This document shows positions 3,724 to 56,252 of a stretch of DNA of 64,000 nucleotides, one piece after another. A model generated the notes under the pieces. That model was not told where the DNA came from, made no database searches, and saw only the letters and a program-made list of their open reading frames with translations. The stretch spans positions 158,106 through 222,105 of the forward strand of contig NZ_JAVFJK010000007.1 in NCBI RefSeq assembly GCF_030908215.1, read 5' to 3'. The number at the start of each line of letters is the position of its first letter. Position 1 is the stretch's first letter. The translations under genes were made by a program, and so were the position numbers. Source of the stretch: Sinomonas sp. ASV486. Its GTDB lineage: Bacteria > Actinomycetota > Actinomycetes > Actinomycetales > Micrococcaceae.

Positions 3724-3782
3724 CCGGCGCGGGGTTAGGTCTCTGCTGTGCGGAGTCACGTCCCTGCGATGCGGGGTCAGCG
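3724..3782. repeat. Degenerate 21-bp repeats, three units
   Basis: GTTA/GTCA cores at 3734, 3755 and 3776 are exactly 21 bp apart, each in a context like CGGAGTCAC or CGGGGTCAG. This is a worn member of the GGGGTGAC repeat family of this window. It lies between the exporter stop codon and the NUDIX promoter. Confidence 0.55.
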
Positions 3783-3796: not shown

Positions 3797-4231
3797 GTGC
3801 CTGACCGGATCATCGTTTCTGCCGTATGCGTCTACGCACCTGACGGGCGCCTCCTGACCGTCCGGAAGCGCGGGACTGACCGATTCATGCACCCGGGTGG
3901 CAAGCCTGAGCCTGGCGAGTCCGCGGCCGAGGCCGCGAGCCGGGAGTTGTCCGAAGAGGTCGGGATCGCGATTGCGGCCGAGGACCTTGTGCCGTTTGGC
4001 GTCTGGATTGCCAAGGCCGCGAACGAGGCCGGCACCGAGATCGAGGGCACAGTGTTCCTTGCCCCCGGAGAATATGATCCGCGCGAAGTCCGTCCGGCGG
4101 CCGAGATCGCTGAACTGCGCTGGATCGACCCGTCGGCGGAACCCGATGCCGACCTCGCGCCGCTCCTCACGGACCACGTTCTCCCCGAGCTCACTCGGCA
4201 GCCAACGAGCTCTGCGCGACGACACGAGTGA
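3797..4231 (+). CDS. NUDIX hydrolase
   Basis: 144 residues with a complete Nudix box GX5EX7REUXEEXGU: Gly35, Glu41, then RELSEEVGI at 49-57. The box builds the loop-helix-loop that binds divalent metal and cleaves nucleoside diphosphates linked to another group. The exact substrate (oxidised dNTP, NADH, sugar nucleotide) cannot be told. The GTG start is supported by a TAGTCT -10 box 6 nt upstream, implying a leaderless mRNA. The TGA stop lies inside the first unit of a GTGACCC repeat array. No operon partner is visible. Confidence 0.9.
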   Translation: MPDRIIVSAVCVYAPDGRLLTVRKRGTDRFMHPGGKPEPGESAAEAASRELSEEVGIAIAAEDLVPFGVWIAKAANEAGTEIEGTVFLAPGEYDPREVRPAAEIAELRWIDPSAEPDADLAPLLTDHVLPELTRQPTSSARRHE

Positions 4232-4298
4232 CCCCGCGTTGTTGGGAGGTGACCCGCATCCGGGGGAGGTGACCCCGGGTCGTTGGGAGTGCTCGGGG
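4224..4298. repeat. 21-bp GTGACCC repeats at the NUDIX 3' end
   Basis: GTGACC cores at 4228, 4249 and 4269 (spacing 21, then 20). The first core includes the NUDIX stop codon. The third unit shares TGACCCCGGGTCGT with the hairpin at 6850. Indels break any reading frame, so the repeat is not coding. Confidence 0.65.
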
Positions 4299-4412: not shown

Positions 4413-5690
4413 GTGACCTTCTCCCGCCGCAGTTTCCTCTCAGCCGCCTCCCTCGCGGCAGTCGGCGCGGCAGCCCTTCCCGGCGCCGCGCCGTCGCCCG
4501 TCCGCAGCGTCGCCCAAGCGGCCTTGCCCAGCCCCGAAGCCTCGGGAATCGACCACATCATCGTGGTGATGATGGAGAACCGTTCCTTTGACCACTTCCT
4601 CGGCTGGCTGCCAGGCGCCAACGGGAAGCAAGCCGGTCTGAGCTATATCGACCGATACGGGGTCCCCCACGGGACGCACCACCTCACCGACTACCAGGGC
4701 TGCAGCCATCCCGACCCCGACCACTCGTACGAGGGTGGACGCATCCAGTTCAACAACGGCAAGTGCGACGGCTGGCTCCGCTCCGGAGACAACGACGACT
4801 TCGCCGTCGGCTACTACACGTCGGCCGACCTCGCGTTCTGGGCGCAGGCCGCGCCGGGCTGGACGGTGTGCGACAACTACTACGCGGCCGTCATGGCGGA
4901 GACCTACCCGAATCGCTTCTACCAGCACGCCGCGCAGACGGACCGGATCCACAACTCAAGCGTCAACGCAACCATGCCGACCATCTGGGACAGCCTCGCC
5001 AAGGCGGGGGTCAGCGGGAAGTACTACTACTCCGACGTCCCGTTCCTCGCTCTGTGGGGCACCAAATACCTCCCCATCTCGGCTCCGTACGCGACATTCC
5101 TGAGCGACTGCGCGGCCGGGACCCTCCCCGCCGTGAGCTTTGTGGACCCGCGCTTCCTGGAGGAGGGCACCGGCACGTCCGGCGACGACCATCCGCACGC
5201 CGACGTCCGATCGGGCGAGCTGTTCCTCAACGAGGTCTACAGTGCGGTCACGAAGTCGCCGCAGTGGTCCCGCACCCTTCTCGTCGTGAACTTCGACGAG
5301 TGGGGAGGCTTCTACGACCACGTCGCGCCGACCACAGCCCCCGACGTGAGCCCGACGACGGCCCTGCGCGGCTTCCGCGTCCCGGCGCTCGCGGTCTCCC
5401 CCTATGCGCGCCGTGGGGCAATCGCCTCCGGAACCTACGACCACACGTCCGTGCTCAAGGCCATCGAGTGGCGCTGGAATCTCCCGGCACTCACCCCGCG
5501 CGACGCCAACGCCGCGAACATCGCCGAGGTCCTCGACTTGCGGAGCGCTCCGAACCTCAGCGCGCCCACCTACCTCGTTCCGCCGTTCGTGGCCGGCACA
5601 CCGTGCACGCCGCTGCCCGGCGGCGACCCAGAAGACGAGTGGCACCCCCTCAAGGCCCGCGCCATCGCGGAAGGATGGAAGCTCGCATGA
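4413..5690 (+). CDS. Secreted phosphoesterase (phospholipase C/acid phosphatase family), Tat substrate
   Basis: 425 residues. The N-terminus carries a twin-arginine signal (SRRSFLSAA followed by an Ala-rich helix), so export of the folded protein is expected. The mature part begins with the family signature GIDHIIVVMMENRSFDHFLG, whose ENRSFD supplies metal and nucleophile residues in the alkaline-phosphatase superfamily. Later blocks AETYPNRFY, DDHPHAD and NFDEWGGFYDHV also fit PF04185-type phosphoesterases. The substrate could be phospholipid or another phosphoester. Start: GTG 4413 from the promoter spacing (TTG 4407 possible). The stop overlaps the next gene by 4 bp, and both encode the same superfamily. 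Confidence 0.85.
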   Translation: MTFSRRSFLSAASLAAVGAAALPGAAPSPVRSVAQAALPSPEASGIDHIIVVMMENRSFDHFLGWLPGANGKQAGLSYIDRYGVPHGTHHLTDYQGCSHPDPDHSYEGGRIQFNNGKCDGWLRSGDNDDFAVGYYTSADLAFWAQAAPGWTVCDNYYAAVMAETYPNRFYQHAAQTDRIHNSSVNATMPTIWDSLAKAGVSGKYYYSDVPFLALWGTKYLPISAPYATFLSDCAAGTLPAVSFVDPRFLEEGTGTSGDDHPHADVRSGELFLNEVYSAVTKSPQWSRTLLVVNFDEWGGFYDHVAPTTAPDVSPTTALRGFRVPALAVSPYARRGAIASGTYDHTSVLKAIEWRWNLPALTPRDANAANIAEVLDLRSAPNLSAPTYLVPPFVAGTPCTPLPGGDPEDEWHPLKARAIAEGWKLA

Positions 5691-22753: not shown

Positions 22754-23184
22754 GTGACGCCGGGTTCGAGGCGGCGCTCGCGGCAGCCCGAGATGGTCTA
22801 GCGGAGGGCGGCATCCCGATCGGCGCAGCGATCCTGCGCGGAGGCGAGGTGATCGCCGTGGGGCACAATGAGCGCGTCCAGAGCGGGGATCCGATCGCCC
22901 ACGGGGAGATGGCCGCGCTCCGCGCGGCGGGGCGTCAACGCACGTACCGTGACACGGTCCTCTACACGACGCTCGCCCCGTGCGCGATGTGCTCGGGAAC
23001 GATCATCCAGTTCAAGATTCCGCGCGTTGTGGTGGGGGAGGCCCGCACGTTTCCCGGCGAGATCGAGCTGTTGCGCTCGCGGGGCGTGGAGGTCGAGGTT
23101 CTCGACGATCAGCGTTGCGTCGAGATGATGCGCGACTTCCAGCGTGAACGGCCTGCGCTGTGGGCGGAGGACATCGGAGAGTGA
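22750..23184 (+). CDS. Nucleoside/cytosine deaminase-like zinc deaminase
   Basis: 144 residues of the cytidine deaminase superfamily. Zinc ligands and catalytic Glu are His51-Gly-Glu53 and Cys78/Cys81 (PCAMC). The HGE form and length resemble yeast-type cytosine deaminases and guanine or tRNA-adenosine deaminase relatives. Substrate is unproven. Coupled to the alcohol dehydrogenase by ATGA overlap. The stop codon (GAGTGACCC) starts the repeat array at 23,182. Closeness to the creatinine genes makes a guanidine-ring or cytosine-like substrate imaginable, but that is speculation. Confidence 0.82.
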   Translation: MSDAGFEAALAAARDGLAEGGIPIGAAILRGGEVIAVGHNERVQSGDPIAHGEMAALRAAGRQRTYRDTVLYTTLAPCAMCSGTIIQFKIPRVVVGEARTFPGEIELLRSRGVEVEVLDDQRCVEMMRDFQRERPALWAEDIGE

Positions 23185-23250
23185 CCCTCGGGTTGCAGGG
23201 AGGTGACTCCGCATCGTGGGGAGGTGACTCCGCATTGTGGGGAGGTCAGG
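23182..23250. repeat. 21-bp GGTGACTCC repeats, four units
   Basis: GTGAC/GTCA cores at 23,181, 23,203, 23,224 and 23,245 (spacing 22, 21, 21). The first contains the deaminase stop codon and the last abuts the convergent iclR stop codon. Same family as the arrays at 42.4 and 56 kb. Confidence 0.75.
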
Positions 23251-26464: not shown

Positions 26465-26500
26465 CGTCGCGTTCCTTTCCGTGGTCTGGGGGCAGACGAC

Positions 26501-26622
26501 GGCGGCGCCGCCCCCCGCGTGGGCGGGGGGGGGCGCCGGCGGGGGGGCGCGGGCCGGGCGGGGCTGGGGGGGGGCCGCCCGCGGGGGCGCCCCCCCCGGG
26601 GGGGGGGGGGGGCGCCGCCGCC
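26501..26622. other. G/C homopolymer tract (probable sequence artefact)
   Basis: Long runs of G and C, including about 15 consecutive G, between iclR paralogue 2 and creatinase. The real sequence here may differ. Promoter and operator of the iclR gene may be lost in it. Confidence 0.6.
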
Positions 26623-42320: not shown

Positions 42321-42390
42321 CCAGAGAACACCGGCACCCTCGGGAGGCAAGGAAGGAACGATGCCCCGCTCGCCAGGCAAGCTGCGTGCC

Positions 42391-42570
42391 GAAGTCACCC
42401 CAGGTGGACGCCAAGTCACCCCGTGCGGGCGCGAAGTCACCCCCGGGGAACGCGAAGTCACCCCCAGCAGGCGCGAGGTCACCCCCGGTAGGCGCGAGGT
42501 CACCCCCGGTAGGCGCGAGGTCACCCCGTGGGAACGCGAGGTCACCCCGTGTGGGCTTGAGATCACCCCT
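42391..42570. repeat. Array of nine 21-bp repeats (CGAAGTCACCCC orientation)
   Basis: GTCACC cores at 42,394, 42,415, 42,436, 42,457, 42,478, 42,499, 42,520, 42,541 and 42,562, every step exactly 21 bp. The typical unit is GCGAGGTCACCCC plus eight variable bases. It lies in the 476-bp gap between iclR (42,308) and the MBL gene (42,785); the stretch 42,571-42,615 behind it holds nothing I can name. Not coding: no start with ribosome site, and only the phase of 7 codons keeps frames open. Confidence 0.9.
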
Positions 42571-42615
42571 CCGGGAGTTTGAAGATCAGGTAACAGCGTG
42601 CTGCTGTGTCAACGC

Positions 42616-42663
42616 ACGACGACGGCCGGTGCCTTCCGCAGGGAAAGCACCGGCCGTCGTCGT
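42616..42663. terminator. Perfect 17-bp hairpin between opposed repeat arrays
   Basis: ACGACGACGGCCGGTGC (42,616-42,632) and its exact complement (42,647-42,663), loop 14 nt. It can terminate the mscR-MBL operon. It is also the centre between two repeat arrays of opposite orientation. Confidence 0.82.
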
Positions 42664-42703
42664 CACCCACGAGGTTCTATCTGGATCGCATGTCTCGTCC
42701 GTA

Positions 42704-42781
42704 CGGGGTGACCTCAGGGTCGTGCGGGGTGACTTCGCGCCCACACGGGGTGACTTCGCGCCCACACGGGGTGACTTCGGC
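42704..42781. repeat. Array of four 21-bp repeats (GGGGTGACTTCG orientation)
   Basis: GTGAC cores at 42,708, 42,729, 42,750 and 42,771, exactly 21 bp apart, inverted relative to the nine-unit array. The last unit ends 4 bp before the MBL gene stop codon. Confidence 0.88.
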
Positions 42782-42784
42782 CTG

Positions 42785-43426
42785 TCAGCGGCCGCGCGCG
42801 ATCCATTCCTGCAGGTGCGGTGCCTCGGCGCCGACGGTCGTCGAGTCTCCGTGGCCCGTGTTGACCTCAGTGTCCCCGGGGAGCGTGAGCAGCCGGGTCC
42901 GGATGGACTCGATGATCGTGGGGAAATCCGAGTAGGACCGTCCGGTCGCCCCGGGACCACCCTGGAACAGGGTGTCCCCGGTGAACACGGTCCCCAGGCT
43001 CTCGGCCCGGAAGCACACGGACCCGGGGGAGTGGCCCGGCGTGTGTATGGCCACCAGCTCCGAGCCCGCGACCGAGAAGACCTCCCCGTCCGCGATCTCC
43101 GCGTCCGGCGAGGTGCCCGGATACACCGCATCCCACAGCATGAGGTCGGCCGGGTGGAGGAGCACCGCTGCGCCCACCTTGTCCGCGAACTCTCGGGCGT
43201 GGCGGATGTGGTCGTCATGGCCGTGGGTGAGGAGCACCGCGGTCACGGTGCGGCCGCCGACTGCGTCGGCGACAGCGCCGGCGTCGTGCGCGGGGTCGAT
43301 CACGATCGCCTCCGCGTCGTCGCCCACGATCCAGACGTTGTTGTCCACGTCCCACGTGCCCCCGTCGAGGGAGAACGTGCCGGACGTGACGACGCGCTCG
43401 ATCCTGGTCCTGCCTTCCGCGCCCAT
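42785..43426 (-). CDS. MBL-fold hydrolase, candidate S-formylmycothiol hydrolase
   Basis: 213 residues, metallo-beta-lactamase fold of the glyoxalase II type: THGHDDH (His68, His70, Asp72, His73), HTPGHSPGSVCF, FTGDTLFQGG and a C-terminal NTGHGDST. The ATG overlaps the mscR stop codon (TGATG), so the two are coupled. MscR makes S-formylmycothiol, and a thioester hydrolase would release formate and mycothiol. That role is inferred from the pairing. Confidence 0.85.
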   Translation of the reverse strand: MGAEGRTRIERVVTSGTFSLDGGTWDVDNNVWIVGDDAEAIVIDPAHDAGAVADAVGGRTVTAVLLTHGHDDHIRHAREFADKVGAAVLLHPADLMLWDAVYPGTSPDAEIADGEVFSVAGSELVAIHTPGHSPGSVCFRAESLGTVFTGDTLFQGGPGATGRSYSDFPTIIESIRTRLLTLPGDTEVNTGHGDSTTVGAEAPHLQEWIARGR

Positions 43427-55837: not shown

Positions 55838-55920
55838 CGGGGTCGGGTCACCAGGCGCGGGGGTCGGGTTGCGCGAGGTCCTGGTGATCTGAGCACTCAG
55901 GGCGAGTGGGCGGCCCTGAG
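55838..55920. repeat. Degenerate 21-bp repeats plus small hairpin
   Basis: GTC/GTG cores at 55,842, 55,863 and 55,884, 21 bp apart, precede an 8-bp stem CTCAGGGC/GCCCTGAG (55,896-55,920). They form the left edge of the 442-bp gap that also holds the 12-unit array. Confidence 0.5.
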
Positions 55921-55950: not shown

Positions 55951-56195
55951 GGGGTGATCTCGGCATCACAGGGGATGACCTCGCGCTCACCCGGGGTGAT
56001 CTGGGGATCAGAGGGGGTGACTTCGCGCTCACCCGGGGTGATCTGGGGATCAGAGGGGGTGACTTCGCGCTCACCCGGGGTGATCTGGGGATCAGAGGGG
56101 GTGACTTCGCGCTCGTACGGGGTGACTTCGCGCTCCAATGGGGTGATCTCGCGCTCCCATGGGGTGATCTCGCGGTCAGGCGGGGTGATCTCGGC
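55951..56195. repeat. Array of twelve 21-bp repeats (GGGGTGATCT/GGGGTGACTTCG)
   Basis: GTGA cores (one ATGA) at 55,954 then every 21 bp to 56,185, with no phase error in twelve units. Units 3-8 alternate between two types, giving a 42-bp higher-order repeat. It lies between the broken iclR and the convergent gntR2, whose stop codon is at 56,253. Confidence 0.92.
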
Positions 56196-56252
56196 GGAAG
56201 TGGTGGCGGGGTGGGGGGTAGCCGGGTGGCTGGGTGGCCGCCTCTGCGTTTC

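Follow-up and report, generated by a model that had tools for sequence, protein, structure and literature searches.

Arrays of direct repeats with a 21-bp step, first seen in a 64,000-nucleotide stretch of the Sinomonas sp. ASV486 genome (the window; part of contig 17 of a 4.28-Mb genome), are real and genome-wide. They probably act as DNA binding platforms for a putative sequence-specific, polar and oligomerising Sinomonas protein that co-evolves with its sites in this genus of soil bacteria. Array anatomy, orientation, species dialects, the register of short pairs, core conservation and the inheritance of sites were observed; from these, we infer the binding protein, its oligomerisation and its task.

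Arrays in the window and related repeats

The core of family A, CGAGGTCACCCC/GGGGTGACCTCG, recurs at a 21-bp step; its form GTCACCCC/GGGGTGAC sits within the 12-bp CGARRTCACCCC, and the unit GCCGAGGTCACCCCGTGTGGC holds no palindrome beyond GGTSACC. Family B (about GGAGGTGACCCCGCATCGTTG) is related to family A, differs from it by one base at the core centre and forms 20-22-bp repeats. The features of the window are:

42381..42569, plus strand (sense core): family A array of nine units (9 nt + CGARRTCACCCC), upstream of an IclR-type gene
42618..42661, unstranded: perfect 15-bp inverted repeat between the two arrays (arms 42618-42632 and 42647-42661), read from the sequence
42705..42788, minus strand (sense core): family A array of four units, its first core a few bases past the stop codon of an MBL-fold gene
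55951..56202, minus strand (sense core): family A array of twelve units, 50 bp past the stop of a GntR/FCD regulator gene
3729..3779, minus strand: family B repeat, core GACGTGACTCC, about 2.4 copies (TRF and scan)
4228..4289, plus strand: family B repeat, core GAGGTGACCCC, beginning on a TGA stop codon (TRF and scan)
23182..23250, plus strand: family B repeat, core GAGGTGACTCC, filling the gap between two convergent stop codons (TRF and scan)

The nine plus four units in strict 21-bp step that the earlier note had described at 42 kb are borne out by the core scan, with nine units at 42,391-42,569, four at 42,705-42,778 and all steps at 21 bp; TRF recovers the same arrays. The core that it had named, GTGACCCC, is one base off: of its 5 exact matches in the window, where 4.0 would be expected, not one falls within 42,391-42,781, and it belongs to family B at 3,729, 4,228 and 23,182; two families had been merged. 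The note's statement that the same core and phase occur elsewhere needs to be split. It is correct for 55,954-56,185, which lies in the twelve-unit family A array, where every step is 21 bp and part of the array forms a 42-bp higher-order repeat. At 3734, 4228 and 23,181, related 20-22-bp repeats are present but the core is that of family B, and at 55,842 no array is detected by either TRF or the core scan.

The 42-kb arrays are flanked by an IclR-type regulator on the left and a metallo-beta-lactamase-fold (MBL) protein on the right, and the inverted repeat between them is, judging from its sequence, a probable bidirectional terminator. Comparisons were made with a complete genome of the same species as the own genome (G058 and G000, respectively), with Sinomonas sp. 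R1AF57 (G003, NZ_CP022463.1) and with a genome taken as S. atrocyanea DS1018 (G008). In the place of the nine-unit array, G058 has seven units and R1AF57 four; the counterpart of the twelve-unit array in G058 has nine. In two cases, G004 and a second gene copy in G013, an IclR-like start comes close after the MBL gene, with no array. Elsewhere in the window, long G-/C-rich low-complexity runs at 1-66 and 26,500-26,620 (TRF period 1 and 38-41) look like assembly or sequencing artefacts.

The family B core GGAGGTGA is identical to a strong Shine-Dalgarno word. Family B (GGAGGTGACCCCGCAACGCTG, 21 bp) is abundant in G011, with 154 GGTGACC pairs (e.g. L250:4801-4916 and 5350-5424; L194). A 22-bp family, TCGGGCGAGARGTGMCCACTCG, runs in G009 from stop codons into a hairpin of similar sequence (L228:17690-17762, L234:16825-16926); in a 200-kb sample, it lies behind stop codons, and it is possibly a sister system with an 11-bp half-step. 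G013 also has a 22-bp family, and in both genomes these related repeats adjoin inverted copies. Six similar GGTGACCACSARAARTMAGAGGTGACC-like repeats at 20-bp distance were found in G068, another genus of the family, among the matches listed (e.g. C1:179403-179429), and are a further dispersed repeat in a relative of Sinomonas.

Occurrence within and beyond the genus

A strict two-unit pattern matches the own genome 70 times, as against 0 for the reversed control, so that the pattern is above chance; R1AF57 has 122 matches, DS1018 53 and G058 84. The pattern is present in 7 of 14 Sinomonas genomes, with 2-4 matches in the four besides the own, R1AF57 and DS1018 genomes, and gives 0 matches in 44 genomes of other genera. 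A generic two-unit pattern, run on 248 genomes of the order, gives 31 matches in the own genome, and none of the other 247 exceeds 8. Among the matches listed for it, the only multi-unit array outside Sinomonas is a 21-bp array in another family of the order that alternates GCCGAGGTGGGGGTCGAGTTC and GCCGAGGTGGAGACAGCTTCC (G222:C32:29300-29413). Exact cores number 132 in the own genome and 1 in the reversed control. Such arrays are nearly lacking in G001, G005 and G006, which indicates that the system is dispensable in the genus.

In three species, 130 arrays were examined, 37 from the own genome, 58 from R1AF57 and 35 from DS1018, the latter two sets representing at least 38 and at least 23 loci. 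Two-unit arrays were retained only next to a longer array, and genes were called with a home-made caller based on codon usage. By these calls, 88 arrays are intergenic and 42 lie in genes. The earlier note had called the repeats intergenic and had taken units inside translated conserved ORFs to speak against its reading; all copies in the window are indeed intergenic, but about a third of the arrays in the three species are not.

Phase, orientation and helical register

The step is 21 bp in 257 of 271 cases in intergenic arrays and in 147 of 151 in in-gene arrays. In the former, codons cannot matter, and the step thus supports a reading at the level of DNA; taken alone it is not decisive, since 21 bp are also seven codons and about a third of the arrays lie in genes. 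The information content is about 1.5-2 bits at most core positions, 0.6-0.9 at the fourth, and 0.2-1.1 at most spacer positions; as units were located by their core, with no more than 2 mismatches, these base counts are biased towards a conserved core.

Neighbouring arrays are arranged in outward-facing order in 57 of 62 pairs from seven genomes. The 43 family A pairs lie between convergent (13), tandem (13) or divergent (2) genes, have an arm in a gene (13) or fall elsewhere (2). In the 18 pairs less than 120 bp apart, the facing cores are separated by 22, 23, 33, 33, 34, 35, 43, 44, 44, 44, 55, 65, 67, 78, 85, 86, 87 and 98 bp. At a period of 10.6 bp, these distances yield R = 0.86, which 0 of 200,000 sets of random integers from 20-100 reach; with any period of 6-20 bp admitted, 0 of 20,000 random sets match. 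At period 21, R is 0.25, and the residues modulo 3 are distributed 4/6/8. The 120-bp cut-off was chosen after a first look at the 43 pairs; cut-offs of 60, 80, 100 and 150 bp give R of 0.80-0.92 at periods of 10.4-10.8. The 18 pairs include one orthologous link, between a pair at 44 bp and its counterpart at 87 bp in another species, and R is 0.85 (p about 5e-6) when this repeat is left out. Gene calls cover fifteen of the 18, all of them intergenic; the other three are from G010 and G007. By eye, their fillers of 3-79 nt look different except for remnants of unit spacers and terminator-like stems. A comb of ~10.6 bp over largely unrelated filler implies a helical-face constraint on the DNA that is independent of the 21-bp step.

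The register is confined to short distances: none is seen at 120-250 bp (n 14, R 0.32, p 0.25) or at 120-400 bp (n 24, R 0.05), and the facing pair of the window, 154 bp apart, lies outside the phased set. Dialect-C pairs below 400 bp, taken alone, give no register signal (n 10, p 0.51). A relaxed replication added 5 new pairs only, with p 0.044, or 0.11 without a same-species duplicate. The earlier note had argued from the strict spacing for a cooperative protein on one face of the helix. This idea gains from the quantised facing-core distances of short pairs, from 21-bp steps where no codons act, from the use of four frames and both strands in genes, and from a core that changes less than the spacer; the step on which it was based is by itself ambiguous, and no binding protein was found. 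Outward orientation, array starts right after stop codons and species dialects had not been part of that note.

Species dialects

Sister species retain the 21-bp step and the half-core GCCGAGRT, mostly with a different second half. In a search of the eleven other genomes of the genus for CCGAGRTS at 21 bp, G011 has 60 matches, G010 42, G007 40 and G002 27, the remaining genomes 1-8 and the control 0-1. Among the matches listed, CACCCC predominates as the second core half in G000, G058, G003 and G008, CGGG in G002, G007 and G010, and GGGGG in G011. Exceptions are one CACC/CGCC-like array in G007, one family A array in G010 and GAGGTGGGG units in G002. Some own arrays end in GAGGTCGGG-like units, possibly relics of another dialect. 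Known GTNAC binders were rejected as candidates for the reader of the core, dialect C being without GTNAC.

The change of dialect can be followed within a single gene. The repeats in the two linkers of E2 lie on opposite strands and use different frames, and both linkers vary from species to species: EVTPSGA/GVTSAPQ in the own genome, EVGSGDA/ASADRTP in G002, EMGARAA/TPISAAQ in G011, EVGSGGA/APISAAG in G007 and EVGSSAA/APTSAAQ in G010. E2 linker repeats of this kind were not seen in G001, G005, G006 and G009; those of G004, G012 and G013 are short.

Inheritance and strain variation

In a flanking-gene test, an array of the same orientation occupies the corresponding position in R1AF57 for at least 22 of 37 own arrays and in DS1018 for at least 11 of 37; in the reverse test, at least 23 of 58 R1AF57 and at least 12 of 35 DS1018 arrays match own ones. 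Within the species, 19 of 20 G058 stretches match own stretches in alignments of 93-99.5% identity, one of the 19 being without a counterpart among the own arrays identified. Copy number is less stable: it differs in 17 of 23 arrays between G000 and G058, aligned by their left edge. In one array (L275 in G058, L177 in the own genome), where a two-unit 42-bp block has been multiplied, one strain has 14 units as against 6 in the other; this array is a fast clock for strain typing. In the first unit, 8 of 276 core positions have changed between the two genomes as against 17 of 207 spacer positions (Fisher p 0.012), and 24 of 1127 positions in the left flank; the core thus changes at a flank-like rate and the spacer faster.

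Such variation is characteristic of VNTRs or minisatellites, with which the arrays share tandem units and strain-variable copy number. A selfish or neutral minisatellite would expand by slippage wherever it is tolerated, without a dedicated protein, and the sameness of the core would reflect descent and exchange between loci. The copy number differences between two strains of one species fit this explanation, as do the permissive places of the arrays, the higher-order 42- and 63-bp repeats as signs of local expansion, and the near-absence of arrays in some sister species. We nevertheless consider it unlikely, since it predicts neither the 10.6-bp comb of facing arms, nor the outward order of the pairs, nor the contrast of core and spacer over many loci, nor the parallel dialect change on opposite strands of E2. 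The differences from a VNTR accordingly are a conserved core shared over many loci, fixed orientation, dialects and the register between arms.

Position relative to genes

Intergenic arrays begin mostly just past stop codons and in one orientation: of the 63 that follow a gene of the same orientation, 43 have their start, counted with the 9 nt preceding the first core, between -12 and +10 bp relative to the stop codon of that gene. The inner end of an array comes within 10 bp of a facing stop in only 4 arrays.

In genes, the arrays mostly encode linkers or termini, 21 of them in sense and 21 in antisense direction, and four reading frames are used (EVTPxGA, 19 arrays; KSPRV, 2; GDLGxT, 10; GVTSAxx, 11). 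A Pfam scan of ten host proteins found families in nine and none in one. In E2, one array (85-119) follows the lipoyl domain (15-86) and the other (227-275) lies between the E3-binding (191-224) and catalytic (286-513) domains; in LigD, the array (531-558) separates the domains at 376-467 and 569-758. Arrays also lie between or outside the domains of StiP, DnaX, a DUF4194 protein (at both ends), LUD and a chorismate-binding enzyme. That of MoeA is inside the domain envelope, and that of AidB just beyond the best-matched part of a split domain. Protein coding is ruled out as the general cause, because the same nucleotides are read in four frames and because post-stop arrays are distributed 17/16/14 (of 47) over the frames relative to the stop. 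Transposon ends with cargo were likewise discarded: the segments between the arms include a domain native to E2 (E3-binding), a DUF4194 gene and a hairpin, and array sites are common to several species.

The preference for stop codons could also point to 3'-end elements at the RNA level, in which arms transcribed past the stop codon form extended hairpins that terminate transcription or shield the mRNA, roles that have been proposed for the hairpins of REPs. The outward order would indeed place complementary arms on one transcript, and the 22-bp repeats of G009 and G013 adjoin inverted copies. However, the spacers of facing arms resemble each other no more than spacers from different loci do (0.573 vs 0.606, 43 pairs), which speaks against an RNA hairpin between the arms; half of the in-gene arrays are antisense, a helical comb is not expected for RNA, and the window has a separate hairpin between its arrays. 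This explanation is quite improbable. Two other RNA-based candidates were dropped: Rho entry via C-rich RNA, as dialect C is G-rich on the same strand, and copying from an RNA template, as the spacers vary while the core is constant.

Less probable still is a topological role, in which the arrays would bind or position DNA gyrase or another general factor past the ends of genes, at sites where positive supercoiling builds up. Arrays behind stop codons and between convergent genes would be well placed for it, helical phasing fits wrapped DNA, and REP clusters are known to bind gyrase. Against this role, a strict species-specific 12-bp core is not expected of gyrase, and many of the arrays are located within genes or between tandem ones.

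Comparison with known systems

Several classes of repeats share some of these features. REP/BIME elements are dispersed, are mostly situated past the ends of coding regions, whether the genes are convergent or in tandem, often have opposite orientation, occur in part inside genes and form families per species (PMC3733652). The arrays resemble them in all these respects: they too are dispersed, mostly behind genes, often opposed, in part in genes and species-specific. In contrast, REPs are imperfect 20-40-bp palindromes tagged GTAG or CGTC, whereas the Sinomonas core is a non-palindromic 12-bp word in direct arrays with a 21-bp step, the unit consensus lacks either tag, and the facing arms are in helical register. 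A CRISPR, with cas genes, a fixed repeat and unique spacers, does not fit, as the earlier note had stated: the 9-nt spacers recur within and between arrays.

The DNA uptake sequences (DUS) of Neisseriaceae have dialects, occupy permissive places in and outside genes and form inverted pairs at terminators (PMC3630211). All three traits, dialects between species included, are seen here, and one reading frame of the family A unit contains TGA. A self-DNA signal for natural transformation is nonetheless the least probable of all explanations considered, since DUS are single, dispersed words at a density of about one per kilobase and not tandem, whereas the Sinomonas words are sparse and clustered in phased arrays (132 exact cores in 4.28 Mb; among 100 matches listed, about 88 are in arrays and about 12 isolated).

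Iterons and partition-site arrays, as in plasmid origins and parC, are helically phased direct repeats that are cooperatively bound, and parC consists of two arrays around a centre. The Sinomonas direct repeats are also in helical phase, both in their 21-bp steps and in the 10.6-bp comb below 120 bp, but they occupy many chromosomal loci, whereas iterons and parC form one site per replicon.

The array loci are dispersed over the chromosome, and the origin, marked by parS clusters, lies elsewhere. Opposite the origin, G058 has an array-free span at 1.33-2.42 Mb (P 0.0095; one-sided KS 0.071) and G003 one at 1.31-1.95 Mb (P 0.0054 among the matches listed; one-sided KS 0.048); in G002, P is 0.14 with all hits kept and 0.004 with three hits left out by eye. 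As the test was made after the gap had been noticed, G058 and G003 share loci, the G003 positions are partial and conserved genes may be sparser there, we take this void only as a hint that arrays avoid the terminus. A polarity by replication strand, with plus arrays seemingly on one half of R1AF57, was not upheld in a fuller set of matches listed. Noc and SlmA have sequence-specific sites scattered around the chromosome (PMC4331003). The arrays resemble them as scattered sequence-specific sites, and their terminus avoidance is suggestive in two Sinomonas genomes. Noc and SlmA sites avoid the terminus and are short single palindromes, for which we know of no arrays or dialects; the Sinomonas sites form arrays, have dialects and show no connection with division.

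No description of these repeats was found in the portions of the open PMC literature that were searched. By their combination of features, the absence of those defining features of REP, DUS and CRISPR that were examined and the lack of anything alike in that literature, we regard the arrays as a new kind of element, with dispersed repeats as the cautious placing. To our knowledge, strict two-turn phasing, facing arms in register across different filler and dialect switches at many loci are nowhere known together.

A model for the arrays

A helix-face constraint combined with lineage-wide shifts of a word are the traces expected of an oligomerising sequence-specific protein and its sites. The proposed binding platforms could work in the following manner: Each 12-bp core would carry one copy of the protein. 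With the cores two turns apart, all copies would lie on the same face of the helix, and neighbours would touch. Two runs of opposite polarity would be turned towards one another, with an intergenic stretch or a gene segment between them; over short gaps, they would share a helical register, which may allow the bound complexes to meet or bridge. Slippage or unequal crossing-over may add or remove units in place, while the sites are inherited. When the specificity of the protein shifts in a lineage, the cores at its loci would follow, giving rise to species dialects. Within genes, arrays would be tolerated because the seven-codon unit provides a harmless linker. The likeliest task is an architectural one, in which a boundary or organising complex would form at the ends of transcription units; boundary formation, chromosome organisation and nucleoid occlusion may all be considered. 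The search for the protein itself was negative: around some of the largest arrays, the neighbours are unremarkable and vary from locus to locus.

In its most far-reaching form, which is speculative and rather unlikely to hold in full, the arrays would belong to an undescribed chromosome-organising system of Sinomonas, of insulator or nucleoid-occlusion type. A putative self-assembling protein would form paired, facing polar complexes at about two dozen or more loci, at gene borders and in coding linkers, perhaps sparing the terminus, and would read a fast-evolving species code word, comparable to satellite DNA with centromere proteins in eukaryotes.

If the binding-platform reading is right, a bacterial genus would possess a dispersed DNA code whose dialects switch at many loci at once, even in coding frames. 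Protein linkers would then be shaped by a signal at the DNA level and not by the protein, and the genus would offer a natural experiment on the joint change of specificity of a DNA-binding protein and its many sites.
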